Notes: generated from the sequence alone by a model not told the origin. Counted from the stretch's first letter, positions 16,097-30,006 are shown. The stretch: 34,010 bases of DNA from Candidatus Rifleibacteriota bacterium (GCA_017417215.1 JAFPZP010000063.1:1-34010); one strand, 5' to 3'. Made by a program: numbers and translations.

Positions 16097-17332
16097 CTAC
16101 AAAGTTGGTCTTCTTGTAGAGCGTCTGCCTCTGCGTCGTGCTTTTTTAGAGAGTTTCGGAGGTTCCTGTTCCAAAAGAGGTATGATTCCGTCGGCCAATA
16201 GTCTTGCCTGCCAATCATGCAGTATTTCGCTTTGAACGAGCTCACCCAAAGTCTGAGGTCGCAATTTTGCAAGACTATATAACGCATGAGAAGGAGCTAA
16301 AACAGAAGGTGGAATGTTGGCTTTCGCAGCAATTTTATCTCTTACCTCTCTGATTGCCTTAGCTAGTTCGCCTTCCCAAGCATTAAGCAATTCTTCACGA
16401 GAATGCTTCTGGATAGGTCTTTCTAAATCTACTAATTCTGCATCTAATCCAGCTCTTATTGCCTTCTGAATATCTGTTCCATATCTTGCTAAAAATTCAT
16501 GATTCATACCCTTTATTGTATTCAAACCAGCGATACTTCTAGGAGTAAGTCTAGCTATTTCCAATAAAGACTGATTACTCAATAGCATGAATGGTGCCCT
16601 ATCTATGCTTTCAGCAATTTCTTCTCTTAACTTCCAGACTTCACGCAAAACTGCTAATGAACGCAAAGAAAGATATGAACTTCCCTTTATATGGAAAGCA
16701 TAGGGATCTGGCTCTTGATTGTGAGCTTCTCTAGCCTGCTTAGCTATAGCATCGCATTCTTCCATAACCCATTCTATACGACCCAATTCATCTAATTCTT
16801 GAATCAGACAATCATAAACAGGAATAAGACATACGGCATCAAGCAAGCCGTATTTTTTCATAGCTTCAGTTAAAGGTCTTTTAGACCAGTCACATCTTTG
16901 CAAATGCTTATCTAATGTAAAACCTAAATATTTTTCTGTTAATGCCCTCAAGCCTAGCTCTGTCATACCTATTATTTCAGCAGCTTTGCGAGTATCGAAC
17001 ATTTTTGGAATAAATATCTGCAAATCTTTTGCAAGCATTGAAATATCATAATCGCCGCCATGGAAAAGCCACATACATTTACTCTTCGAAGCAAATTCCT
17101 GGAAAGGAGAAAAATCGCTTATCACTTGTGGATCCATAATTGCGGCTTCTTTGCGAGTTGCAATCTGAATCAGATTAACTTTTGCATAATAACGATAAAA
17201 AGCGGCTGATTCTACATCTACTGCTATAACATCTTCATTGGCTGCTCTTTTAAAAAATGCAGCCACTTCTTCTGTTGTTTCTATCAGCTTAGAATTTGCG
17301 ATAAAAGGTGACGGGTCAAAAGCTATGTTCAT
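16097..17332 (-). CDS. rnd: Ribonuclease D-like 3'-5' exonuclease with HRDC domain
   Basis: DEDDy-family exoribonuclease, expected to trim 3' ends of tRNA precursors and other small RNAs. Motif Exo I is D39 and E41 (VDVES), Exo II is H91...D96 (HGGDYDISML), and Exo III is Y161...D165 (YGLLDAVCLIPVYD). An HRDC-type helical domain lies at about 215-290 (YLSLRSLAVLREVWKLREE), and a second helical stretch follows. The chain ends in a very basic tail (ARRRGRRSTRR) that probably binds RNA. Length of 411 aa is close to RNase D. No strong Shine-Dalgarno is visible. The gene converges on pgpA and diverges from the DUF1015 gene. Confidence 0.9.
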   Translation of the reverse strand: MNIAFDPSPFIANSKLIETTEEVAAFFKRAANEDVIAVDVESAAFYRYYAKVNLIQIATRKEAAIMDPQVISDFSPFQEFASKSKCMWLFHGGDYDISMLAKDLQIFIPKMFDTRKAAEIIGMTELGLRALTEKYLGFTLDKHLQRCDWSKRPLTEAMKKYGLLDAVCLIPVYDCLIQELDELGRIEWVMEECDAIAKQAREAHNQEPDPYAFHIKGSSYLSLRSLAVLREVWKLREEIAESIDRAPFMLLSNQSLLEIARLTPRSIAGLNTIKGMNHEFLARYGTDIQKAIRAGLDAELVDLERPIQKHSREELLNAWEGELAKAIREVRDKIAAKANIPPSVLAPSHALYSLAKLRPQTLGELVQSEILHDWQARLLADGIIPLLEQEPPKLSKKARRRGRRSTRRPTL

Positions 17333-17611: not shown

Positions 17612-18916
17612 ATGTCAGATATTAACGCAAGATTAGAAGCAGTTGGATTAAAGGCAGCAGATATTATGCTTCCAAAGAAGGGCACTGATTTATCTAAATG
17701 GGCAGTAGTTGCCTGTGACCAGTATGAATCTGAAAAAGAATATTGGAAATCAGCATCAGATATAGTTGGTGAAGCACCTTCAACTCTTCGTCTTATATTC
17801 CCAGAATGCTATCTTGAAGATAATGATGGCGATCAACGCATTGCTAACATCAATGCTTCAATGAAGAAATATGTTGACGCCAAGTTATTTGATACATATA
17901 AAGAATCTTTCTTCCTGGTTCGCAGAACCTGCAGCGGCGTTTCAAGATGGGGTCTCATGGCTGCATTAGACCTTGACCGCTATAGTTGGGAAAAAGGTTC
18001 CAAGACCTTAATCAGAGCTACAGAAGGCACAATTCTTTCTAGAATTCCACCGAGAAAGAAAATCAGAAAAGATGCTCCTCTAGAAATTCCTCACATCATG
18101 GTTTTGATTTCTGATGAAAAGCGCTCTGTAATTGAACCTTTGGCAGCTAAAAAAGACAAACTTCAAAGCGTTTATGATGTTGAACTCATGAAAAATGGCG
18201 GTCATCTTGAAGCTTGGCTTGTAAATTCTGACGAAGACAAAGAAAACATCTGCAAAGCTTTTGAAGCTATATACGGTGCTCTTGATAAATCTAACCCATT
18301 ACTTTTTGCTATGGGTGATGGCAATCACAGTTTTGCAACAGCCAAGAGCTGCTGGGAAGATATTAAAGCTACTCTTACACCAGAACAGCAGAAGAATCAC
18401 CCCGCAAGATTCTGCCTTGTTGAATTAGAAAACATTTTCGATCCAGGCCTTGTATTTGAACCAATTCATCGTGTTTTCTTCAATGTTCCAGAAGATGTAT
18501 TCCTGAATGAACTCAAGAAAAACGCTGAATCTATTTCAATCGAAGAAGTTAGTTGCAAGAACTGCATCGCTGACAAGATTAAAGACCAGAGCGAACAGCG
18601 CTTCGGTTACTGTGTAGCCGGCAAGCATGCAGTTGTTACTCTTAAGAAACCTGCTGCCAACATCGCTGCAGGCACTCTCCAGAAGGTTATCGACGAACTG
18701 GTTAAACAAAAATACAATATCGGCTACATCCACGGTGCTGATGTTACTGATAAACAGGGTTCTGAAAAAGGCAATATAGGTATCTTCTTACCAGCTATTG
18801 ATAAGGGTACATTCTTCGAAACAATTATTAAAGACGGTGCCCTTCCCCGTAAGACCTTCTCTATGGGTGAAGCCAACGAAAAACGCTTCTACATGGAAGC
18901 TAGAGCGATTAAGTAA
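17612..18916 (+). CDS. DUF1015 family protein
   Basis: Conserved protein of unknown biochemical function, 434 aa as usual for the family. Recognised from the start, KAADIMLPKKGTDLSKWAVV, the CDQYES stretch, the hallmark MGDGNHSFATAK at 234-245, and HPARFCLVELENIFDPGL downstream. No signal peptide or membrane segment, so cytoplasmic. The GDGNHS motif looks like an active-site or ligand loop, but no reaction can be named. The start is supported by purine-rich AAGGAAAGG at 17593-17601, 10 nt upstream. It is alone on its strand and followed by a long repeat-rich gap. Confidence 0.92.
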   Translation: MSDINARLEAVGLKAADIMLPKKGTDLSKWAVVACDQYESEKEYWKSASDIVGEAPSTLRLIFPECYLEDNDGDQRIANINASMKKYVDAKLFDTYKESFFLVRRTCSGVSRWGLMAALDLDRYSWEKGSKTLIRATEGTILSRIPPRKKIRKDAPLEIPHIMVLISDEKRSVIEPLAAKKDKLQSVYDVELMKNGGHLEAWLVNSDEDKENICKAFEAIYGALDKSNPLLFAMGDGNHSFATAKSCWEDIKATLTPEQQKNHPARFCLVELENIFDPGLVFEPIHRVFFNVPEDVFLNELKKNAESISIEEVSCKNCIADKIKDQSEQRFGYCVAGKHAVVTLKKPAANIAAGTLQKVIDELVKQKYNIGYIHGADVTDKQGSEKGNIGIFLPAIDKGTFFETIIKDGALPRKTFSMGEANEKRFYMEARAIK

Positions 18917-19498: not shown

Positions 19499-19502
19499 AA
19501 AC

Positions 19503-19542
19503 ACATTTAAAAAAGCTGGCATTCGCCAGCTTTTTTAAATGT
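19503..19542. terminator. Perfect bidirectional terminator, 18-bp stem
   Basis: Arms run 19503-19520 and 19525-19542 with an ATTC loop and no mismatch; the core GCTGGC/GCCAGC is flanked by A6 and T6 runs. On the minus strand it lies about 120 nt beyond the cyclase stop and is the likely terminator of that long operon. Confidence 0.88.
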
Positions 19543-19603
19543 AAATCACTTAGTTATTCTGATACTATTGTTCGTAAGCTTACTTGCCTTTTTCTTAACA
19601 ATA

Positions 19604-19659: not shown

Positions 19660-22600
19660 TTACTTGTGCGTAAGTATATAACGTCCATCCCAGCCTTCTG
19701 GAGGTGGATTAACCTTGTATTCATTACAGCGTGTAATATAAGTTTTTGACGGACCATCATTGGGGTCGAGCTTCAAAACTTCTTCAAAAGTAGCTATGGC
19801 TTCATCCCATTTTCTTTCAAGATGGAGCTGAATAGCTTTATCATAAAGTTCTGTCTTTTCAAACCAGCCTTCTGGCTCATCACCAATTTTACAAACCAGT
19901 TCGTGAACCTTAACCGGTTCTTTCTTACCCTTAACAGCCAAAAAGTCTAAGAAACGACCTCTGACAGCGTGTTTAACTCGCTGATAGGTATTGTCGCTGA
20001 CCATCATCATAGTGCCATATTCTTTATTGGCGCCTTCAAGACGTGAAGCTAAGTTAACACCGTCACCCATACAGGTGAAGTTCATCTGAGCCTTCTGCGA
20101 ACCCATGTAACCGACAACAACATCTTGTGTATTAATACCGCATCTGGCAGCTACTTTCGGGAAACCTCGTCTAGCCCAATCTATCTGCAGTTCCTTGATC
20201 TTTTTCTGCATTGCTATTGCACAAAGAACCGCTTTAACAGCATGATCTTCCTGTTTTTTCGGGAAATTCCAAAAAGCCATTACTGCGTCACCAATGAATT
20301 TATCTAGAGTTCCACCGTATTCAAACAAAAGATCAGTCATAGCACCTAAATATTCATTAAGTAATATAACCAGATCTTCTGGTGAAAGACCTTCTGAAAT
20401 TGTAGTAAAACCTGCAACGTCAGAGAAGAAAATTGTCAGTTCAGTCTTGGTTCCGCCTGGTCTTACCAAATCAGGATTATCAAGCATATACTGAACAACG
20501 TCAGCAGAAACGAACTTAGAGAACATTGCTTTTGTAGTATTAGCTTTTTTACGCTGTTTTAAGTAATTAATCAAAGTATTAGCAAACCATATAGACAGTA
20601 TAGCTGTTAATAAAGGAGCTAACTTTACAACCTGTCCCAGCAAGTGATAAGAAAAATAGCTACAAATACTAGCTAACATAACAATTACTAATGATATTAG
20701 TGTTCCAATAACAGGAGAATAGATTTCTAATACAAAGGCTGTAACTATACAACAAATAATTAACGAGAAAAGAGTAATATAAAAATTTGGTCTTCTAATA
20801 AAGTTTCTATTAAGTAAATTCATGATAATATTAGCATGAATTTCTATTCCCATTAATGGGTCATTAGATACTTGTAAACCTGTTGGATAGGACACAGGAG
20901 TAGGATAAAAATCGAAATCAGTAGCCTCAAAGGGGCCAGCTATGTAGACTCTTTCTCCCTTGTTTTCCATCTTCTTTCCTAAAGTTCTTCTATGAGCAAA
21001 ATTAGGATCTAGCCTTGTTTTATCAGGATTTTTCTTTAAAAATTCTTTTAAAACATTATCATCTAAAGCTTCATAATAAGAAACCGAATTTATACCAGCA
21101 TATTTATTGTTGCCTTTTCTAGTAGAACCAGCATAATTAATATAAATTCTACCTTCTGCAGATAATGGGATTTCTAAGTCTTTTATTTTTAAAAGACCAT
21201 TAAACTTTCCTTTACAGAAATCTTCTCTTATTTCTTCAAATACTTTCTTTTGAACCTCAATATAAGAAGGTTCAGCAATAGCCAGTTTCTTATTTATTTC
21301 TTCAATTTCTTTTTCAGATTCTTTAACTATAGTCCCAAAACCATCTCTGCCTTTTTTATCTTTAATTGTTTTTTTCAATTCTTCTAAGCGCTTAGGCAAA
21401 ACAAATTTGTTGTCATAATCTAATTTTTCTAATGCTATTTTCAATGCAAAAGAAGGTTTTATAGTCTGAGTAGCAATCAAATTATTGTTGGCATCGTATA
21501 CTTTCTCGTCTACCATAATTATTACTGGAGCTTCAGTAATATATGATTTGCTGCCTTGAGTCATATCAATCATTGCATAATCAATGTTATTCTTATTTTC
21601 TAGAAAAAGTTCATATGGTTTTATAAAGATATTTTCAACAATACCCTGCTTATTATTTTGAGAAAGCTCAACAAGTTTATCAGATGAGGTTTGTTTCGAA
21701 TCACCAGGATTATTATCTGTATATTTCATCATTTGAGTAAAAGAACCCTCATCTCTGGCACCTTCATCTTCAATACTTTCAGTTTTTCTGCGTGCCGCAA
21801 GAACAACCTTGCTTTTTATATTTTTAAAAGTATTAGCTAATTCTTGATCGTATTCCTTGGTTTTTTCGCCTTGGAGTACAAAGTCAAATCCAATTACAGA
21901 AGCAGGTTCTACCCAATAAGAAGTATCTCGGCCATAAGTTTTTAATTTTAGAGTAAGAGTAAAAAAGTTTTTTTCTGTTCCAGCATTATCTTCACGTTTC
22001 TTTAAAGTTGGAAACAATCTAAATTCATAGACCATTTCGGCATACCCGAGATTATTTAATAGATTCTGAAATCTAGTAAGAATTTCTTCGATGCTTTGTT
22101 TTTGGGATTTGTTTCCCCTGGTATCTTTTTTACTATTTTTTATCTCATCATTATTGTCATTTAAATCCAAAAGATTTTCTATTTCTTCTTTAACCTGTTT
22201 AGAATCCCAATCTACGCAAAGAGTTGGGAAAATCAGATATTTACTTCCGCCAGCAAGAACTTTAAATAGATTTTGTCCTCTAGGTTTCCAAGTATTTCCT
22301 GTAACTTTTATAAAAGAAGTAAAACCTGGTTTGTCCTTATTTTCAGTTTTCTTAAAATAATCACTGACCTGTTTCGAATCACCTTTCCATTTATCTTGAT
22401 CATAGTAATCTAGATTTTTACTATTTTTGTTTTCGCTTTCATCCAGCAAATTATTCCATTCGTTCCAAGAAGTAGAGATTGGTCTCTGATTACGTATTTT
22501 TTCATATAAACCTATTTTTATAGTTAATAAGTCAAAACTTTGAGAACGGCTTTTAAAAGGAGATTCTCTTTTTTGTCTCTGACCTAAAAATTTGAACATA

Positions 22601-22890
22601 GAAGAATGGATATGTCTATTATTAATATCCATGTTAAGTAAAGAAGATGAAGTTTCATCTTTTTTTACTACAGTTACCAGCTTAGGATCTTTAGGCAACT
22701 GATAACCAATTTGATATATTAATGCTTGTAAGTATCTTTCTAACTCAGTAAAACCTAGGGTTATTTCAATACTAAACACAATCACAAAAACGACTAAAGC
22801 AATCAATCTAATTGTATAATTTTTATCTTTTCTGAAAAAAAACTTAGACAATTTGCTTTTAATATTAGACAATTTGGCAGAAATACTCAT
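19660..22890 (-). CDS. CHASE2-domain adenylate/guanylate cyclase with C-terminal TPR
   Basis: Membrane receptor cyclase predicted to make cAMP (or cGMP). A membrane segment at about 28-46 is followed by an extracytoplasmic CHASE2-type sensor to about residue 700, ending in LMGIEIHANIIMNLL. Three membrane helices follow (about 703-722, 727-748, 752-773). The class III catalytic domain has both metal aspartates, D824 (FFSDVAGF) and D868 (KFIGDAVMAFW). A short TPR-like tail (1014-1042) closes with PPPEGWDGRYILTHK, typical of this architecture. The sensor region is roughly twice the usual size, enlarged by charged, low-complexity inserts. AGGA lies 7 nt before the ATG, which overlaps the GH57 TGA by 4 nt. 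Substrate choice cannot be read safely. Confidence 0.92.
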   Translation of the reverse strand: MSISAKLSNIKSKLSKFFFRKDKNYTIRLIALVVFVIVFSIEITLGFTELERYLQALIYQIGYQLPKDPKLVTVVKKDETSSSLLNMDINNRHIHSSMFKFLGQRQKRESPFKSRSQSFDLLTIKIGLYEKIRNQRPISTSWNEWNNLLDESENKNSKNLDYYDQDKWKGDSKQVSDYFKKTENKDKPGFTSFIKVTGNTWKPRGQNLFKVLAGGSKYLIFPTLCVDWDSKQVKEEIENLLDLNDNNDEIKNSKKDTRGNKSQKQSIEEILTRFQNLLNNLGYAEMVYEFRLFPTLKKREDNAGTEKNFFTLTLKLKTYGRDTSYWVEPASVIGFDFVLQGEKTKEYDQELANTFKNIKSKVVLAARRKTESIEDEGARDEGSFTQMMKYTDNNPGDSKQTSSDKLVELSQNNKQGIVENIFIKPYELFLENKNNIDYAMIDMTQGSKSYITEAPVIIMVDEKVYDANNNLIATQTIKPSFALKIALEKLDYDNKFVLPKRLEELKKTIKDKKGRDGFGTIVKESEKEIEEINKKLAIAEPSYIEVQKKVFEEIREDFCKGKFNGLLKIKDLEIPLSAEGRIYINYAGSTRKGNNKYAGINSVSYYEALDDNVLKEFLKKNPDKTRLDPNFAHRRTLGKKMENKGERVYIAGPFEATDFDFYPTPVSYPTGLQVSNDPLMGIEIHANIIMNLLNRNFIRRPNFYITLFSLIICCIVTAFVLEIYSPVIGTLISLVIVMLASICSYFSYHLLGQVVKLAPLLTAILSIWFANTLINYLKQRKKANTTKAMFSKFVSADVVQYMLDNPDLVRPGGTKTELTIFFSDVAGFTTISEGLSPEDLVILLNEYLGAMTDLLFEYGGTLDKFIGDAVMAFWNFPKKQEDHAVKAVLCAIAMQKKIKELQIDWARRGFPKVAARCGINTQDVVVGYMGSQKAQMNFTCMGDGVNLASRLEGANKEYGTMMMVSDNTYQRVKHAVRGRFLDFLAVKGKKEPVKVHELVCKIGDEPEGWFEKTELYDKAIQLHLERKWDEAIATFEEVLKLDPNDGPSKTYITRCNEYKVNPPPEGWDGRYILTHK

Positions 22891-24509
22891 TTGTCGTTCC
22901 TACTACTTCTATAGACTCTATAATCCATTTCAGGGAAAATATTATCCCTTTTTTCTACTTCACGCAACCAGGATTCATTTATCTGACCTTTATTGATATC
23001 TTCATAAAGCTTTGTAAAACGGAAAACGTGATCTTTTACTCTCTTTTTAGCATAACCAACAGTAGTATCCATTTTCATGATAAAAGCCCAATCAGATGAT
23101 TGAAGAAGCATAAGTTCTCGTGCTGCCTGATTCAAAGCATCTTTTGTTAGCCCTTCTGCATCAGGGAAAGTGTCAGCTAGTTTTATCATACGCTCTGCTG
23201 CTTTGTGCATATGCGGATATATATAAGCATTGGTTTCATTCAACCATACTTCGCTATAACCATTTGCACCCCAGGTTGAATCAGAAGGGGTAGCTTCCTG
23301 AATTCCAGGATAATAATCAATATAATCAGATGGTGTTACCAAGCTGACATACTTGCTTTCAAGAGAGGTTTTCTTCAAGACATAGTAAATAAAATCAGGT
23401 CCTTCATACCACCAATGACCGAATAATTCGCAATCATATGGAGCAACTACAATAGGCTTGCGATCCATATGTTTCATCAAATATTCTACTTGTCGTTCTC
23501 TGCACCATATAAAGTGAGCACCATGTGAAGCCGCTCTTTTCATAGCTTCCTGATAAGAATAAGGCTCTTTCTGGGAAGAATTTCTGTCGGTAATTCTATA
23601 ATACTTAATTCCTGTATTAAGCCTCATACCAGATTCATGAATATATGGCTTTATATAATCAAAATCTAAATCATAGCCAATATCTCTATAAAACTCTCTA
23701 TAATAGGGATCTCCAGGATAACCAATTATAGATGACCAGACCTGATGACCACTTTCCATGTCACGCCCAAAAGCCTTTACACCTGAGGGGCATTTTATTG
23801 GTGCATAAACTCCATAAGTCGGTCTTGGCTCAGCCTTAGTTATTCCGTGAGAATCTGTGATAAAATATTCAATACCAAAATCATTTAATATTTTATCATC
23901 TCCTCTATGGAAGGCACATTCAGCAAGCCATATTCCCCTAGGCTGCCTATTAAAAAATCTTACATATTCACTTACACCAACCTCAATCTGTGCTCTTACA
24001 GAAGGTCTGTAATCCTTCATTAAAGGCAAAAAGCCATGAGTCGCACAACAGGTAATAATTTCTAAAACACCTTTTTCTTGAAAATATTTAAATGCGGAAA
24101 TTAAATTATGTTCTAATTTTTCGAAAATATCTCTAAATTTTCTGTATTTATCTCTATATAACCTTGCTGTATTATAAAATTCAGGCATATCTTTTGTTCT
24201 GGTTACTTCTTTTTCAGATAATTCTTCAAGTTTTGCAAGATAATCAGAATATCTATCCATCAAAAGCTCATCTGAAAGCATATTTAGAAGAGGGGGTGTC
24301 AAAGTCATTGTTATACGGAAATCAATGCCTTCATTTATTAATTTATAAAATACATCTATTAATGGAATATAAGTTTCTGTAATTGCTTCATACAGCCATC
24401 TTTCTTCCATCATATCAGAGTATTCAGGATGTCTAACAAAAGGCAGATGAGCATGAAGAATTATTGATAAAAATCCGGGTCTTAAATCTAATTTATTATT
24501 ATTTTGCAT
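22887..24509 (-). CDS. GH57 1,4-alpha-glucan branching enzyme
   Basis: Glycoside hydrolase family 57 with the DUF1957-type C-terminal helical domain, the architecture of alpha-1,6-branching enzymes for glycogen-like polymers. Motif 1 is HAHLPFVRHPE (H19, H21), the nucleophile motif is GIWLAEC (E197), and the acid/base motif is YDCELFGHWWYEGP (D359). The C-terminal part, from about 420, contains WGANGYSEVWLNETNAYIYP and ends in long helices. At 540 aa it has normal length, and no signal peptide is visible, so it is cytoplasmic. The DUF4912 gene upstream is a common companion. The Shine-Dalgarno candidate GGGGAG lies 13 nt from the ATG inside a repeat hairpin, which is unusual. Confidence 0.92.
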   Translation of the reverse strand: MQNNNKLDLRPGFLSIILHAHLPFVRHPEYSDMMEERWLYEAITETYIPLIDVFYKLINEGIDFRITMTLTPPLLNMLSDELLMDRYSDYLAKLEELSEKEVTRTKDMPEFYNTARLYRDKYRKFRDIFEKLEHNLISAFKYFQEKGVLEIITCCATHGFLPLMKDYRPSVRAQIEVGVSEYVRFFNRQPRGIWLAECAFHRGDDKILNDFGIEYFITDSHGITKAEPRPTYGVYAPIKCPSGVKAFGRDMESGHQVWSSIIGYPGDPYYREFYRDIGYDLDFDYIKPYIHESGMRLNTGIKYYRITDRNSSQKEPYSYQEAMKRAASHGAHFIWCRERQVEYLMKHMDRKPIVVAPYDCELFGHWWYEGPDFIYYVLKKTSLESKYVSLVTPSDYIDYYPGIQEATPSDSTWGANGYSEVWLNETNAYIYPHMHKAAERMIKLADTFPDAEGLTKDALNQAARELMLLQSSDWAFIMKMDTTVGYAKKRVKDHVFRFTKLYEDINKGQINESWLREVEKRDNIFPEMDYRVYRSSRNDK

Positions 24510-24523
24510 TTTTTTATTTTTGC

Positions 24524-24617
24524 TCCCCTTTATAAGGGGAAAAGTCAGCGATAGCTGACAGAGAGGTTTTAAAATCCCCCTGTCTACTTCGTAGACATCC
24601 CCCTTTACCCAAGGGGG
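24524..24617. repeat. Multi-hairpin intergenic element (family copy A)
   Basis: Fills most of the 111-nt gap between DUF4912 and GH57. In plus-strand order: TCCCC/GGGGA palindrome (24524-24540), GTCAGC-GATA-GCTGAC (24544-24559), GTCTAC-TTC-GTAGAC (24582-24596), and CCCCC/GGGGG (24599-24617). The part from 24571 matches copies at 28172 and 29954 in the same orientation. In the transcribed (minus) sense the last arm of the first palindrome supplies the GH57 Shine-Dalgarno. Confidence 0.85.
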
Positions 24618-24620
24618 TGT

Positions 24621-25385
24621 TTATCTTTTTAACAATTCATCGGAACTGCCAATTGTATGGGAATCGCATTCTTCATCATTACCAATAGCTTTATTTAAAT
24701 CAAAATTTTCTATTATTTCTATAATTTCGTTAATATTGCTATTTGCTATTTCTTGTAATTCAGAATCATTTTCTTCAGCAATCTTTTCTTCTTCAATAAC
24801 GGGTTTTGCTGGTACCCACTCAGCAATATTTTCTGATAGCTTATCGGTAGGAATATGTATTGGATTTGAAGTAGCTAATACTTCATCGCCAATAGAGGGA
24901 ATACGAATACAAAGTTGAACAAAATAATCACAATCGCTATCATTCAAGCTCAAATACCAATTATCACAATTTTCAGGTAATTTAATGTCAAAAGAATAAT
25001 TAAGAGAGGTATTAAAAACACGAAGGAATAACTCGGTGTGTGCATATTCAAAAGCACCAAGCTTTATTTCAAGTTTCTTTTGCTCAATAGAAGAAAATTC
25101 CCAATAAACCCATGCCCAATGAGGGTCTCTAGCTTGAGCAACAACTCTTGTTTCACCGTATTCAGAAGGTAAATCGCCAGTAAGCTCTTCTTCTGTTATT
25201 ACTACAGAAGAAGGGATTGACGAAGTATTAATTAATTCAACATTTTCAAAAGTCGAATTTAAATTTGAAAACTTATTATTTATAAGCCCAGCCTTATCTT
25301 CTTCTAATAATTCATTAGGCTCAATAGGCTTAGTTTTTAAGTTTACAGGAATAGCGACACTATTTAAAATGTCGTTCTGACTCAT
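24621..25385 (-). CDS. DUF4912 domain protein
   Basis: Recognised by the DUF4912 core RDPHWAWVYWEF at about 88-99, followed by a beta-rich stretch (ELFLRVFNT, NWYLSLNDSDCDYFVQLCIR, ending in EWVP) to about 195. The N-terminal 75 and C-terminal 60 residues are acidic and low in complexity. Function is unknown; the aromatic core resembles small beta domains that sit next to alpha-glucan enzymes, and here it directly precedes the GH57 branching enzyme. In other bacteria DUF4912 is often fused to an N-terminal Rho_N/SAP-like domain. Here that domain is encoded by the preceding AT-hook gene, whose TGA overlaps this ATG by 4 nt, so it looks like a split version of the same unit. Confidence 0.88.
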   Translation of the reverse strand: MSQNDILNSVAIPVNLKTKPIEPNELLEEDKAGLINNKFSNLNSTFENVELINTSSIPSSVVITEEELTGDLPSEYGETRVVAQARDPHWAWVYWEFSSIEQKKLEIKLGAFEYAHTELFLRVFNTSLNYSFDIKLPENCDNWYLSLNDSDCDYFVQLCIRIPSIGDEVLATSNPIHIPTDKLSENIAEWVPAKPVIEEEKIAEENDSELQEIANSNINEIIEIIENFDLNKAIGNDEECDSHTIGSSDELLKR

Positions 25386-26758
25386 TGTTTTTTTTTCTTA
25401 TCTTGTAAAAGAACAGATAATTTTTCGAGGTCTTTTAATTCCTGTTCAGAGCGTTTATTAGCGGTTTTCTTTTCAGCGCTTTTTTTTGCTGTTTTGTTGC
25501 CTTTCTTTGGAGTAGCAGCAACAATTTTTTCTGCTACCTTCTTAGCTTCTTTCTTTGCTGGTTTTTCGGCTACTTTTGTAGCTTTTTCAGCTTTAGCTGG
25601 TCTACCGCGCTTTTTAGCTACGGGTTTTTCTTCGACTTTCTTGGCTGGTTTTTCTGCTACCTTTGCAGCCTTTTCAGCCTTAGAAGGTCTACCACGTTTT
25701 TTAGCTACGGGTTTTTCTTCGACTTTCTTGGCTGGTTTTTCTGCTACCTTTGCAGCCTTTTCAGCTTTAGATGGTCTACCGCGTTTTTTAGCTACGGGTT
25801 TTTCTTCGACTTTCTTAGCTGGTTTTTCTGCTACCTTTGCAGCTTTTTCAGCTTTAGCTGGTCTACCGCGCTTTTTTGCTACGGGTTTTTCTTCGACTTT
25901 CTTAGCTGGTTTTTCTGCTTCTTTTGCAGCTTTTTCAGCTTTAGAAGGTCTACCGCGCTTTTTAGCTGCGGGTTTTTCTTCAACTTTCTTGGCTGGTTTT
26001 TCTGCTACCTTTGCAGCTTTTTCAGCTTTAGATGGTCTGCCACGTTTTTTAGCTACGGGTTTTTCTTCTACTTTCTTTGCTGGTTTTTCTGCAACCTTTG
26101 CAGTTTTTTCAGCTTTCGAAGGTCTGCCACGTTTCTTTGCTACGGGTTTTTCTTCTGCTTTCTTTGTAGGTTTTTCTGCTACCTTTGCTGCTAATTCAGC
26201 TTTTGAAGGTCTACCGCGTTTTTTGGCTACAGGTTTTTCTTCAACTTTTTTTGCTGGTTTTTCTGCAGTCTTTGCTGCTAATTCAGCTTTTGAAGGTCTA
26301 CCGCGTTTTTTTGCTACGGGTTTTTCTTCTACTTTTTTTGCTGGTTTTTCTGCTACTTTTGCTGCTAGTTCAGCTTTTGAAGGTCTGCCACGTTTTTTTG
26401 CTACGGGTTTTTCTTCAACTTTTTTCGCTGGTTTTTCTGCTACTTTTGCTGCTAGTTCAGCTTTTGAAGGTCTGCCACGCTTCTTTGCTACGGGTTTTTC
26501 TTCTACTTTTTTTGCTGGTTTTTCGGCTACTTTTGCAGCTTTTTCAGCCTTAGAGGGTCTTCCGCGTTTTTTCTTATCGGTAGAAAGTGTTTTTTCAGAT
26601 TTATTTTCTTTGGGTTCTTTTTCGATTTTCAAGCCCAATAAAAGAGCTACTATCTCTTCTTTGGAAGCCTTTGCAGAATATTTAACTCCGATAATCTTTG
26701 CGAAATTAAATAATTCATCTTTGCTCATTTTTTTTAATTTATCTTCTGAAAATTTCAT
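25382..26758 (-). CDS. Repetitive AT-hook protein with N-terminal SAP/Rho_N-like domain
   Basis: 458 aa from the ATG at 26758, chosen because GGGAG lies 8 nt upstream (26766-26770); a TTG at 26773 would add five residues but lacks support. Residues about 5-42 (LKKMSKDELFNFAKIIGVKY) look like a SAP/Rho_N helix-extended-loop-helix. Then come twelve copies of a 29-residue unit beginning KKRGRPSKAE; RGRP is the AT-hook core that grips the minor groove of A+T-rich DNA. The tail is Lys/Ala-rich, like histone H1. It is expected to be an abundant DNA-binding, nucleoid-type protein. It is coupled to DUF4912 by an ATGA overlap, with branching enzyme and cyclase downstream. Confidence 0.9.
   Translation of the reverse strand: MKFSEDKLKKMSKDELFNFAKIIGVKYSAKASKEEIVALLLGLKIEKEPKENKSEKTLSTDKKKRGRPSKAEKAAKVAEKPAKKVEEKPVAKKRGRPSKAELAAKVAEKPAKKVEEKPVAKKRGRPSKAELAAKVAEKPAKKVEEKPVAKKRGRPSKAELAAKTAEKPAKKVEEKPVAKKRGRPSKAELAAKVAEKPTKKAEEKPVAKKRGRPSKAEKTAKVAEKPAKKVEEKPVAKKRGRPSKAEKAAKVAEKPAKKVEEKPAAKKRGRPSKAEKAAKEAEKPAKKVEEKPVAKKRGRPAKAEKAAKVAEKPAKKVEEKPVAKKRGRPSKAEKAAKVAEKPAKKVEEKPVAKKRGRPSKAEKAAKVAEKPAKKVEEKPVAKKRGRPAKAEKATKVAEKPAKKEAKKVAEKIVAATPKKGNKTAKKSAEKKTANKRSEQELKDLEKLSVLLQDKKKKQ
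25550..26572 (-). repeat. In-frame 87-bp tandem repeat encoding 12 AT-hooks
   Basis: The first and twelfth RGRP codon blocks (26566 and 25609) are exactly 957 bp apart, 11 units of 87 bp with no indel. The last unit is partial. Copies differ mainly at third codon positions and at a few residues (Ser/Ala after RGRP, Lys/Leu, Val/Thr/Glu), so the amino-acid unit is conserved more than the DNA. Confidence 0.95.
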
Positions 26759-26792
26759 TATTAAAGCTCCCAAAAACTATTTATCAATAATT

Positions 26793-26798
26793 ATTATA
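26793..26798 (-). promoter_or_regulatory. Possible -10 box for the AT-hook operon
   Basis: TATAAT on the minus strand, about 35 nt before the AT-hook ATG. No good -35 lies at the right distance (best is near TGGTAA), and the whole stretch is A+T-rich, so this could be chance. It would give the AT-hook/DUF4912/GH57/cyclase genes their own promoter. Confidence 0.3.
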
Positions 26799-26851
26799 TT
26801 TTTAATGTACACATTTTACCATAAAAATAAAAAAAAATAATATATTTTTTT

Positions 26852-26980
26852 TTATTTTTCTTCTTCCTTTGTAAATTGTTCTAATAGCTTATTTAACAAG
26901 GCTGGTAAAAATATAAAAAATAAATAATAATGCAATGCCATAAATAAACCGAATAAGTATCCAAACATCTGATAAAACAT
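26852..26980 (-). CDS. Small hydrophobic membrane protein (42 aa)
   Basis: Short ORF starting MFYQMFGYLFGLFMALHYYL with one long aromatic-rich hydrophobic helix (about residues 3-32) and a charged C-terminal tail (FTKEEEK). GGAG lies 8 nt before the ATG, in the 19-nt gap after the upstream TPR gene's stop, so it fits the operon exactly. A single-pass membrane peptide is the likely form. I do not recognise a family. The strong ribosome binding site and operon spacing are the main reasons to believe it is real. Confidence 0.7.
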   Translation of the reverse strand: MFYQMFGYLFGLFMALHYYLFFIFLPALLNKLLEQFTKEEEK

Positions 26981-26999: not shown

Positions 27000-28142
27000 T
27001 CATTCGTATTTATGCTCGATTTTAACCAAAACTCTTACACTGGAAAAAAGAGGTACACCCTGTTTCCCACCAGTATAAGAATCATCTATATAAGCCTTAG
27101 TAAGACTTACATCTGAAAAAGATACATAATATTTATATTTAGATGTTTCAAAAGAAAGAATATTATTTTCCATACCATCAGAAGCAGAAAATAAATAATC
27201 TTTTTTTTCTGAACCTTTACCTAATGTTATTGAAAACCACTCAAAACGATTATTAGGAATACCATCTCTTTCATTAAATGCTTTAAGAGAAAAACCACCT
27301 TTTTCAACATCTCTTGTAACAGAGCCAGTATTGCTAAATTCAAAAGTTTCTTGGAAAATAAGAGTATTTTCGTTAGAAACTACTTCAGAAATAGCATTAT
27401 GAGGCTTGGCAGTTTCTAAATAAGAAGTTTTTTTAGTATTAAAATTATCAAGCTTAGCTTCAGCTTGAGTAGCTTCATCTGAGTCCGGATAAATAATTAT
27501 AATCTGTTGAAGAGTTTCGACTGACTTTTCTATATCACCACGTAGTTCTAGCATTGTAGCAAGTTTTAAAAGTCTGTCCGGTTCTTTATCTTTGGTTTCA
27601 GAAAGATAAGTTAAATATTTAACTGCATCTTCAATTAATCCATGCTCATTTTTTTCCATTAAAGTAGGCATTAAACGCAAACTTGCCAAATAATCATCAA
27701 TAGCTGCTCTGATATTTCTTTTTTTATAATATTCCATAGCAGAATTAAAAAGTCTGGTAGCTTCTTCCGTCTGAGCCATTTCCGGAAGATGTTCCAGTTT
27801 CATATAAGCTCTACTTTGTAATATATCAGGTAGTTTGCCGCTTTTCATAGCAAGCTTATAATGATAGGTTGCAAATTCATAACGACGAACAGCCTCTAAA
27901 CATTCACCTATTCTAAAATGAAGCTTAGCAGATATTTCATCGTTGCTAGTCATTCCTAAGCCTTCATAATAAAAAACAAGAGCTTCTCGGTAATCATTTT
28001 TTCTAAAAAGATCTTCAGCCCTTATTAAGCACTTATTAATTGTATAAGGGGGTGTTATTTTTTCTGTATTCTGAGCTAAAACAGCATCAGAACATACTAA
28101 TACAGAAGTTAATAAAGCATATAATACTAGCTTTTTATTCAT
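27000..28142 (-). CDS. Exported TPR protein with C-terminal beta domain
   Basis: 380 aa. Residues 1-23 form a signal peptide (KKLVLYALLTSVLVC...AVLA, cleavage likely before QNTEK); the Cys in it lacks a proper lipobox. TPR-like helices span about 33-235 (AEDLFRKNDYREALVFYYEGL, AMEYYKKRNIRAAIDDYLASL, LELRGDIEKSVETLQQIIIIYPD). From about 255 to the end the chain is beta-rich and unrecognised. It is expected in the periplasm. A small membrane ORF follows 19 nt downstream, so the two may form an envelope pair. No clear Shine-Dalgarno; GGATGGG is the nearest. Confidence 0.85.
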   Translation of the reverse strand: MNKKLVLYALLTSVLVCSDAVLAQNTEKITPPYTINKCLIRAEDLFRKNDYREALVFYYEGLGMTSNDEISAKLHFRIGECLEAVRRYEFATYHYKLAMKSGKLPDILQSRAYMKLEHLPEMAQTEEATRLFNSAMEYYKKRNIRAAIDDYLASLRLMPTLMEKNEHGLIEDAVKYLTYLSETKDKEPDRLLKLATMLELRGDIEKSVETLQQIIIIYPDSDEATQAEAKLDNFNTKKTSYLETAKPHNAISEVVSNENTLIFQETFEFSNTGSVTRDVEKGGFSLKAFNERDGIPNNRFEWFSITLGKGSEKKDYLFSASDGMENNILSFETSKYKYYVSFSDVSLTKAYIDDSYTGGKQGVPLFSSVRVLVKIEHKYE

Positions 28143-28171: not shown

Positions 28172-28272
28172 AAAATCCCCCAGTCTACTTTGTAGACATC
28201 CCCCTTTAAGAAAGGGGGTATTTTTTTATTCTTCGTAGACATCCCCTTTAAAAAAGGGGGTATTTTTTTATT
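28172..28272 (+). terminator. Tandem terminator-like repeat (family copy B)
   Basis: GTCTAC-TTT-GTAGAC (28183-28197) followed by a CCCCCTTT/AAAGGGGG hairpin (28200-28218) and a T-run, then a second, truncated unit 43 bp on: TTCGTAGAC at 28232 with a CCCCTTT/AAAGGGG hairpin (28243-28259) and again a T-run. The T-runs make both good terminators on the plus strand, antisense to the flanking minus-strand genes. The unit matches copies at 24571 and 29954. Confidence 0.8.
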
Positions 28273-28319: not shown

Positions 28320-29459
28320 TTAAAATCCACCAGTGAAATTATTAGGAACAACAGAACGAATAATAAGGTCGTTATTCTTAGTATTAGGTACTGTTTCAAG
28401 CAACAAGTATTTTGTCTTTCCTTTTTGAATGTCTTTTCTTATTTCTTTTAATAAAGGAATTACATTCAAATCACCGCTTTGGAAAAGTCCCAGATTATAA
28501 AGGTTGTTCTTGTTTGCATCTACATAAGCAAAATAAGCATCATTATAGCGAATAAGAACCTGTTCGGCATAATGGGTATCTTTATCTTCCAAACCCTTTT
28601 TATAATCTTTTTCAGCTCTAAGCATTTCCTTAAGAGCCTTTTCCATTTCTTCGTGACGGTTATTCCATTTATCTAATCCCTGAATTAACTGTTGGAACAT
28701 TACAACACTGATATATTCTGTGTTCTGTTTATAAACTTCAACAATATCGTCACATTCAAGAAGAGCTATACCTAAGTTATAAGCTAAGCCCACGCCAAAT
28801 TCCTTAGCCATTTTCTTGAATACAGGAGCAGAAATACCACCGTTACGAAGCAGAACTTTCATTTCGTGCTTTTTAGCAGCATCGCAAATTACTTTCAAAG
28901 CCTTTTTAAATTGAGTTTCTGCCAAAGGATCAATAAATTCACCAGGCTGAGAAACTGGAACAATTATGTTTTTTACACCATATTTTGCCCCAAGTTCTAT
29001 TATAGGAAGACAATCTTCAACCTTTAACTGAGAATAAATAGGATTACCCTTTAGAGCGTTAGGAATAGCCAAATAACAGGGTCTGAAATGAACCAGTTTT
29101 TCTGGTCTTTGGTAGATTTTCCTTTTCCCTCTGATTTTTTCATCTTCTTTTTTAGTATTAGATTGATTTAAAGCAGGAGGAACGGAATAAGCTTTTCCTA
29201 TATATTCAGGTAAAGTCAAAATTGCTTCAATACCAAGTTCCTGAGTTTTTTCAAGCATTTTTTCAAATGCTTCGGAATTATTTTTCAGACCAGGGTCGTT
29301 AACTCTGATATCTATGAAGTTCATTTTATCGCGCCATTTGGCCAATGAACCATTACAACTGATTGAAATAGGTGGATCTAACGGGTCTTGAGAACCACCT
29401 AAAGCCTGTTCCACATAACCGAGAAGAAAAGTTGTTTCTGTATTATTCATAATAGCCAT
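28320..29459 (-). CDS. Xylose isomerase-like TIM-barrel protein, probably inactive
   Basis: The order of strands and helices looks like the sugar-phosphate isomerase/epimerase (AP endonuclease 2) TIM barrel: NFIDIRVND, LGIEAILTLPE, VKNIIVPVSQPGEF, MKVLLRNGG, VGLAYNLGIALL, YISVVMFQQ, TKYLLLETVP. The usual metal ligands are replaced. LLRNGG (203-208) stands where ENH is common, N228 stands in the DTGH position, and VVMFQQ stands where HxKD is common; only E355 remains. A charged helical insert (about 265-325) separates the last two strands. No signal peptide. It is most likely a non-catalytic binding or structural protein; the fold assignment itself is by eye. Confidence 0.72.
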   Translation of the reverse strand: MAIMNNTETTFLLGYVEQALGGSQDPLDPPISISCNGSLAKWRDKMNFIDIRVNDPGLKNNSEAFEKMLEKTQELGIEAILTLPEYIGKAYSVPPALNQSNTKKEDEKIRGKRKIYQRPEKLVHFRPCYLAIPNALKGNPIYSQLKVEDCLPIIELGAKYGVKNIIVPVSQPGEFIDPLAETQFKKALKVICDAAKKHEMKVLLRNGGISAPVFKKMAKEFGVGLAYNLGIALLECDDIVEVYKQNTEYISVVMFQQLIQGLDKWNNRHEEMEKALKEMLRAEKDYKKGLEDKDTHYAEQVLIRYNDAYFAYVDANKNNLYNLGLFQSGDLNVIPLLKEIRKDIQKGKTKYLLLETVPNTKNNDLIIRSVVPNNFTGGF

Positions 29460-29953: not shown

Positions 29954-30006
29954 AAAATCCCCCAGTCTACTTCGTAGACATCCCCCTTTAAAAAAGGGGG
30001 TCTTTT
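29954..30006 (+). terminator. Hairpin repeat with terminator (family copy C)
   Basis: AAAATCCCCC followed by GTCTAC-TTC-GTAGAC (29965-29979) and a CCCCCTTT/AAAGGGGG hairpin (29982-30000) with a short T-run. Same orientation and nearly the same sequence as copies A (24571) and B (28172). Suitable to terminate the small plus-strand transcript. Confidence 0.8.

Follow-up and report, generated by a model that had tools for sequence, protein, structure and literature searches.

Four contiguous genes at the locus

We analyzed a 34,010-nucleotide stretch of DNA from a Candidatus Rifleibacteriota bacterium (GCA_017417215.1 JAFPZP010000063.1:1-34010). It is called the window below and forms contig C24 of a genome of 2.57 Mb that is 69% complete. 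On its minus strand, open reading frame (ORF) calls and Pfam searches placed four contiguous genes, encoding a Rho_N-like protein with AT-hooks, a DUF4912 protein, a GH57 branching enzyme and a CHASE2 cyclase. The geometry given in the initial annotation was borne out: 4-nucleotide ATGA overlaps join the AT-hook gene to the DUF4912 gene (25382-25385) and the GH57 gene to the cyclase gene (22887-22890), and a gap of 111 nucleotides (24510-24620) lies between DUF4912 and GH57. The four-gene order recurs over many genera of one family, which includes contig G007:C86 matching a record named Candidatus Ozemobacteraceae (L153), and is therefore more than chance. The stable functional unit within it is DUF4912 plus GH57, and the cyclase stands outside this unit.

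The first gene (25382..26758, minus strand, with its ATG at 26758) encodes a 458-residue protein with a Rho_N-like start, followed by 12 AT-hooks of the type KKRGRP (Pfam AT_hook, 89.9 bits). The protein has a pI of 10.3, and its 12 KRGRP cores, each a GRP core in basic context, are spaced one every 29 residues; they are encoded by an array of 87-bp tandem repeats (25549..26572, minus strand; 11.8 copies by TRF, one AT-hook per 29 residues). The start of the protein, described earlier as SAP-like, gave no Pfam Rho_N or SAP match at E 0.1 and matched a hidden Markov model (HMM) built from the Rho_N-like N termini of fused relatives at E 5e-10. An antisense ORF on the plus strand (25494-26840) mirrors the AT-hook repeats and was taken as spurious.

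The fused relatives are the common form. Every other genus examined has the AT-hook/Rho_N part joined to DUF4912 in a single protein of 270–800 residues; in the window and in genome G003 they are two ORFs overlapping by four nucleotides, and the C-terminal Glucodextran_B-like domain is gone. The split point lies just before a VAIPV motif that can be read in both the split and the fused sequences; the window's genus has split the one fused gene in two. The 87-bp repeat differs between the window species and G003, with the AT-hook core retained in both (12 cores in the window protein, 10 in G003). The earlier statement that DUF4912 and SAP/Rho_N domains are often fused elsewhere proved correct on a large scale: among 30 fused DUF4912 proteins, Pfam Rho_N matched 13 and the C-terminal Glucodextran_B-like domain was found in 20. 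A structure model of a fused relative predicted three confidently folded parts (a helical start, DUF4912 and a C-terminal beta domain) with disordered linkers between them. In Carboxydocella (L211, 6925-7996), the DUF4912 match upstream of GH57 is spread over two open frames that overlap; the gene may be split or carry a frameshift.

The DUF4912 protein itself (24621..25385, minus strand) has 254 residues and a pI of 4.2. It matches PF16258 at 82.3 bits (cut-off 29.4) and has the conserved DPxW...YWE core, but is diverged from other members of the family, split from its Rho_N/AT-hook half and without the C-terminal Glucodextran_B-like domain. AlphaFold2 predicted the domain as a confident FnIII/Ig-like beta-sandwich (pLDDT 91.5), with FnIII matches in Foldseek, and its aromatic positions are highly conserved in the alignment. 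The predicted fold and the conserved aromatics are compatible with a binding role. We found no solved structure of any DUF4912 relative and, in the open literature searched, no described function for the domain.

The third gene (22887..24509, minus strand) encodes the GH57 enzyme, which exceeds the cut-offs of both PF03065 (124.3 bits against 21.2) and the branching-enzyme C-terminal domain BE_C, PF09210 (145 bits against 25). Its best PDB match is AmyC of T. maritima (2b5d), full-length and at E 5e-167. Residues E197, C198 and D359 are invariant in the alignment (A4) and correspond to the catalytic Glu, the branching-type Cys of CSR-3 and the catalytic Asp, and the catalytic loop has 32 residues between its anchors, compared with 39–67 in long-loop enzymes. 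By its domains, residues and loop the protein is classed as a glycogen branching enzyme of the AmyC (short-loop) type, with branching activity as the predicted function. It shares with AmyC the full-length match, the catalytic Glu and Asp, the branching-type Cys and the short loop (PMC6616209); in the literature consulted AmyC is described alone, whereas the window enzyme is accompanied by an obligate-looking DUF4912 partner.

DUF4912 as the partner of short-loop GH57 enzymes

To place the pair in a wider context, we surveyed 336 genomes, one per species and spread over many families. DUF4912 was present, once per genome, in 93 of them, and 81 of these 93 also had a strong GH57 branching enzyme, while only five strong enzymes occurred without DUF4912 (Fisher p 6e-58). 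The GH57 gene was found directly downstream of DUF4912, within 6 kb, in 73 of the 93 genomes, 52 of them outside the phylum; the count of 73 is a minimum, as at least two further pairs (G030 and G033) are obscured by contig ends. In a scan of 80 named GH57 loci, DUF4912 was just upstream in 67 of the 75 loci that had at least 1 kb of upstream sequence and just downstream in one. The titles of the named paired loci cover Bacillota, Omnitrophota, Nitrospirota, Planctomycetes, Elusimicrobia, Verrucomicrobia, Margulisiibacteriota, Latescibacterota, Goldiibacteriota, Poribacteria, Myxococcales, Blastocatellia and others. That DUF4912 neighbors GH57, as had been proposed for the window, thus holds across bacteria.

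Individual loci depart from the common arrangement. In Natroniella acetigena (L213, 9596-10384), DUF4912 is directly downstream, not upstream, of GH57, and three Brachyspira loci of GH57 branching enzymes (L190, L192 and L193) have no DUF4912 alongside.

The named-locus scan was built on GH57 motifs of the window type and therefore did not sample long-loop enzymes. For the surveyed genomes, we typed the enzymes by the length of the catalytic loop between two anchors. All 72 typable DUF4912 genomes had the short loop, and DUF4912 was absent from all 33 long-loop genomes; each loop form also corresponds to a clade, however, and these counts are therefore not independent events. A short-loop enzyme without detected DUF4912 was seen in 10 genomes, in at least two of them only through contig ends. 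These data show that DUF4912 accompanies short-loop (AmyC-type) GH57 enzymes across bacteria as a near-obligate partner encoded upstream. The result links a domain family to one defined enzyme type and, together with the putative nucleic-acid-binding half, provides it with a role that can be tested; it also suggests that AmyC-type enzymes have so far been assayed without their partner.

The glucan context of the window's family was assessed from its genomes. A GT4 glycogen synthase (TIGR02149) was found in the family, with four tested matches of 514–543 bits (cut-off 302), and alpha-glucan synthesis is therefore plausible there, as judged from gene content; in the 69%-complete genome of the window itself, no such synthase was found. 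The canonical GT5 GlgA was considered as the synthase and rejected, as it was not found in family genomes G001–G023, where one GT4 TIGR02149 synthase takes its place; GT5 is present in other families of the phylum. Phosphorylase-like and GH13 proteins are present in the family genomes, and GH77 was not found in them.

Candidate roles of the DUF4912 protein

Beyond the pairing, DUF4912 proteins usually carry a Rho_N-like helical domain and a basic tail rich in Lys, Ala and Pro. Among 83 DUF4912 proteins, 70 have an N-terminal extension of more than 60 residues, net positive in 59 of those 70, and an HMM of Rho_N derived from the family matched 40. An analogy is offered by PhaF and PhaM, which join polyhydroxyalkanoate (PHA) to DNA via basic, histone-like tails (PMC5658603). 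Like PhaF of Pseudomonas and PhaM of Ralstonia, the DUF4912 system would combine a polymer-side domain with a basic, repetitive DNA-binding tail and is encoded beside polymer enzymes (PMC5658603). It differs from them in having no PHA-binding amphipathic helix, in the presumed polymer being alpha-glucan and in the nucleic-acid part being Rho_N/AT-hook; Pfam found a phasin domain in neither the AT-hook nor the DUF4912 protein of the window. The likeness is thus one of working and not of membership, the DUF4912 system being known here from sequence.

By this analogy, it is a reasonable possibility, which we rate slightly short of an even chance, that the protein works as PhaF and PhaM do, binding nucleic acid and serving alpha-glucan synthesis as a scaffold. 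The Rho_N/AT-hook tail would bind DNA (or RNA) and the DUF4912 beta-sandwich would hold either the alpha-glucan as it grows or the enzyme that branches it, so that the pair would tie glucan synthesis to the nucleoid; glucan particles would thereby be positioned, and distributed to the daughter cells when the cell divides, as PHA granules are by PhaF and PhaM. The chromosome may then be an anchor for bacterial glycogen as it is for PHA. The wider proposal that DUF4912 proteins form a pan-bacterial class of glucan phasins, tethering the alpha-glucan of short-loop GH57 enzymes to the nucleoid and needed for normal function of the enzyme in the cell, is doubtful.

Several observations weigh against a scaffold. 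About half of the DUF4912 proteins have no detectable Rho_N and 13 of the 83 have no N-terminal extension longer than 60 residues; Rho_N domains can also bind RNA. We found no direct sign of glucan binding by DUF4912: a carbohydrate-binding-module fold was tried and rejected, as Foldseek gave FnIII instead, and the TM-scores were modest. The link between DUF4912 and the short loop could also come in part from the shared ancestry of one enzyme clade.

An alternative is a catalytic role, in which DUF4912 would supply the acceptor-chain binding missing from short-loop GH57 and raise branching over hydrolysis, with the basic tail being secondary. The long catalytic loop, with its tyrosine, is missing from short-loop enzymes, and DUF4912 sorts perfectly by loop type, occurring with the short form and not with the long. 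The AmyC of T. maritima, assayed alone, hydrolyzes at up to 30% and has a catalytic loop that stops short of the acceptor side (PMC6616209). T. maritima too has DUF4912, and both the conserved aromatic positions and the Glucodextran_B-like domain of 20 of the 30 fused proteins fit a helper. AmyC nevertheless branches without a partner (PMC6616209), and a helper leaves unexplained why Rho_N, AT-hook and histone-like tails recur. A further point against it is the 10 genomes where the short-loop enzyme has no detected DUF4912 (contig ends being the cause in at least two). On balance, we consider such a helper unlikely.

The nucleic-acid-binding features could alternatively belong to a regulator that acts on glucan genes in transcription or at the RNA level and autoregulates its operon, with DUF4912 sensing glucan or a sugar. 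The Rho_N domain, the AT-hooks and the position of the gene immediately before that of the enzyme under its putative control agree with this, and PhaF also controls gene expression (PMC5658603). Regulation is nonetheless distinctly improbable: no sequence-specific DNA-binding domain was found, the 12 degenerate AT-hooks and the disordered tails point to nonspecific binding, and no recognizable site or RNA family was found in the window, an Rfam search of it returning no RNA element. The helper and regulator roles could hold together with that of a scaffold.

The cyclase and its family-specific block

The fourth gene (19660..22890, minus strand) encodes a receptor consisting of CHASE2 (PF05226, 53 bits; cut-off 26.3), transmembrane segments, a class III adenylate cyclase domain (PF00211, 77.7 bits) and TPR repeats. 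The class III motifs FFSD, LDKFIGD and NFTCMGDGVNLASR are conserved in all 17 family orthologs and cover the two metal-binding Asp, the Lys/Thr specificity pair and the transition-state Asn and Arg; the nearest solved relative of the catalytic domain is CyaB of P. aeruginosa (3r5g). With its outside CHASE2, transmembrane segments and K/T specificity residues, the protein resembles CyaD1, CyaD2 and CyaK of S. meliloti (PMC13001267). It differs from other CHASE2 class III cyclases in its very large extracytoplasmic part and C-terminal TPR, and in its neighbors, a family-specific microprotein and a TPR protein.

The conserved block is larger than the four genes first described and includes three genes upstream. 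The gene order in the family is TIM-barrel, TPR, microprotein, (Rho_N/AT-hook/DUF4912), GH57, CHASE2 cyclase and RNase D. In the window, the first gene of the block is that of a TIM-barrel-like protein, TIM28 (28320..29459, minus strand), an ORF with a weak AP_endonuc_2 match whose ortholog lies directly before that of TPR27 in family genomes. TPR27 (27000..28142, minus strand), which follows, has a signal-peptide-like start and a TPR_2 match of 36 bits, and its position is supported by synteny. A gap of about 200 nucleotides before the AT-hook gene is retained in all family members, and each holds a hydrophobic ORF of 36–42 residues with a ribosome site. That of the window is the 42-residue microprotein MFYQMFGYLFGLFMALHYYLFFIFLPALLNKLLEQFTKEEEK (26852..26980, minus strand), preceded by a GGAG site. 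Ten residues of the microprotein are invariant in the family alignment, and the differences at codon positions 1, 2 and 3 number 815, 274 and 1,624, third-position changes thus dominating. Of the 24 family genomes, 21 have it; no other genome of the 336 gave a convincing match, and it had no Pfam or NCBIfam match.

The initial annotation had suggested that the cyclase ties storage-polymer synthesis to cyclic AMP (cAMP), as its controller or as its reporter, with cAMP and the branching enzyme forming one pathway. The GH57–cyclase junction is indeed tight, with a spacing of –4 to +31 nucleotides in 17 family genomes, the cyclase motifs are intact, and matches to cyclic-nucleotide (cNMP)-binding domains number between 4 and 20 per genome in the 15 family genomes searched. 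The two parts are separable, however. In three genomes (G004, G009 and G017), neither DUF4912 nor the GH57 branching enzyme was found, while TIM, TPR, microprotein and cyclase are contiguous, with RNase D next in G004 and G017. The three form one clade of two genera (UFBoot 99), and because this is nested among pair-carrying genomes under midpoint rooting, one clean loss of DUF4912 and GH57 is the simplest history. The reverse is seen in G013 (L047), where the pair is present and the cyclase is not adjacent, and outside the family, 79 named GH57 loci all lacked the cyclase. Most family genomes have at least seven CHASE2 matches, and the window cyclase is therefore not special; the operon contains no CRP-like site, the only weak half-like match being inside DUF1015. 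On the loss pattern and the absence outside the family, the cyclase was rejected as part of a glucan unit, and we regard a cAMP link to the polymer as very improbable.

The cyclase was retained beside the TPR protein and the microprotein after the loss of the pair and therefore travels with these two. The pair sits within a block of TIM, TPR, microprotein, cyclase and RNase D, and the CHASE2 protein, probably an adenylate cyclase, would have a task of its own in this separate, family-specific membrane-signaling block. The CHASE2 cyclase pathway of S. meliloti requires an outer-membrane partner, NsrA (PMC13001267); that the TPR protein and the microprotein are parts of the cyclase receptor is our guess. 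It is scarcely credible that the whole order is inherited synteny of promoter-sharing neighbors with no common function: the block does include genes without an evident glucan role (TIM, TPR and RNase D) and synteny alone remains likely for the cyclase, but the adjacency of DUF4912 and GH57 across many phyla excludes it in practice for the pair. Gene order within one family, as for the cyclase, is to be distinguished from linkage persisting across phyla.

Displacement of the lost GH57 enzyme by a GH13 GlgB was also considered for the three genomes without the pair. Among 13 of their GH13 proteins (not all of their GH13 genes), we found no GlgB; the proteins matched maltodextrinase, TreS, TreY or TreZ, or nothing at E 1e-60. 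In G004, two cyclase-like ORFs follow the microprotein in tandem (L294, 3387-8410).

Downstream of the cyclase, the window contains a strong hairpin resembling an intrinsic terminator (19502..19543, minus strand), with a 19-bp stem and about 115 nucleotides past the gene. A DUF1015 gene on the plus strand (17612-18916; Pfam and synteny) separates the cyclase from the RNase D-like gene (16097..17332, minus strand; DNA_pol_A_exo1, PF01612, and HRDC, PF00570; synteny), which in other genera directly follows the cyclase. A REP-like palindrome, CCCCCTT..AAGGGGG, lies in the gap between DUF4912 and GH57 (24599..24617) and occurs in total three times in the window (also at 28200-28218 and 29982-30000), compared with 0.01 expected; G003 has a palindrome element similar to that in the gap.

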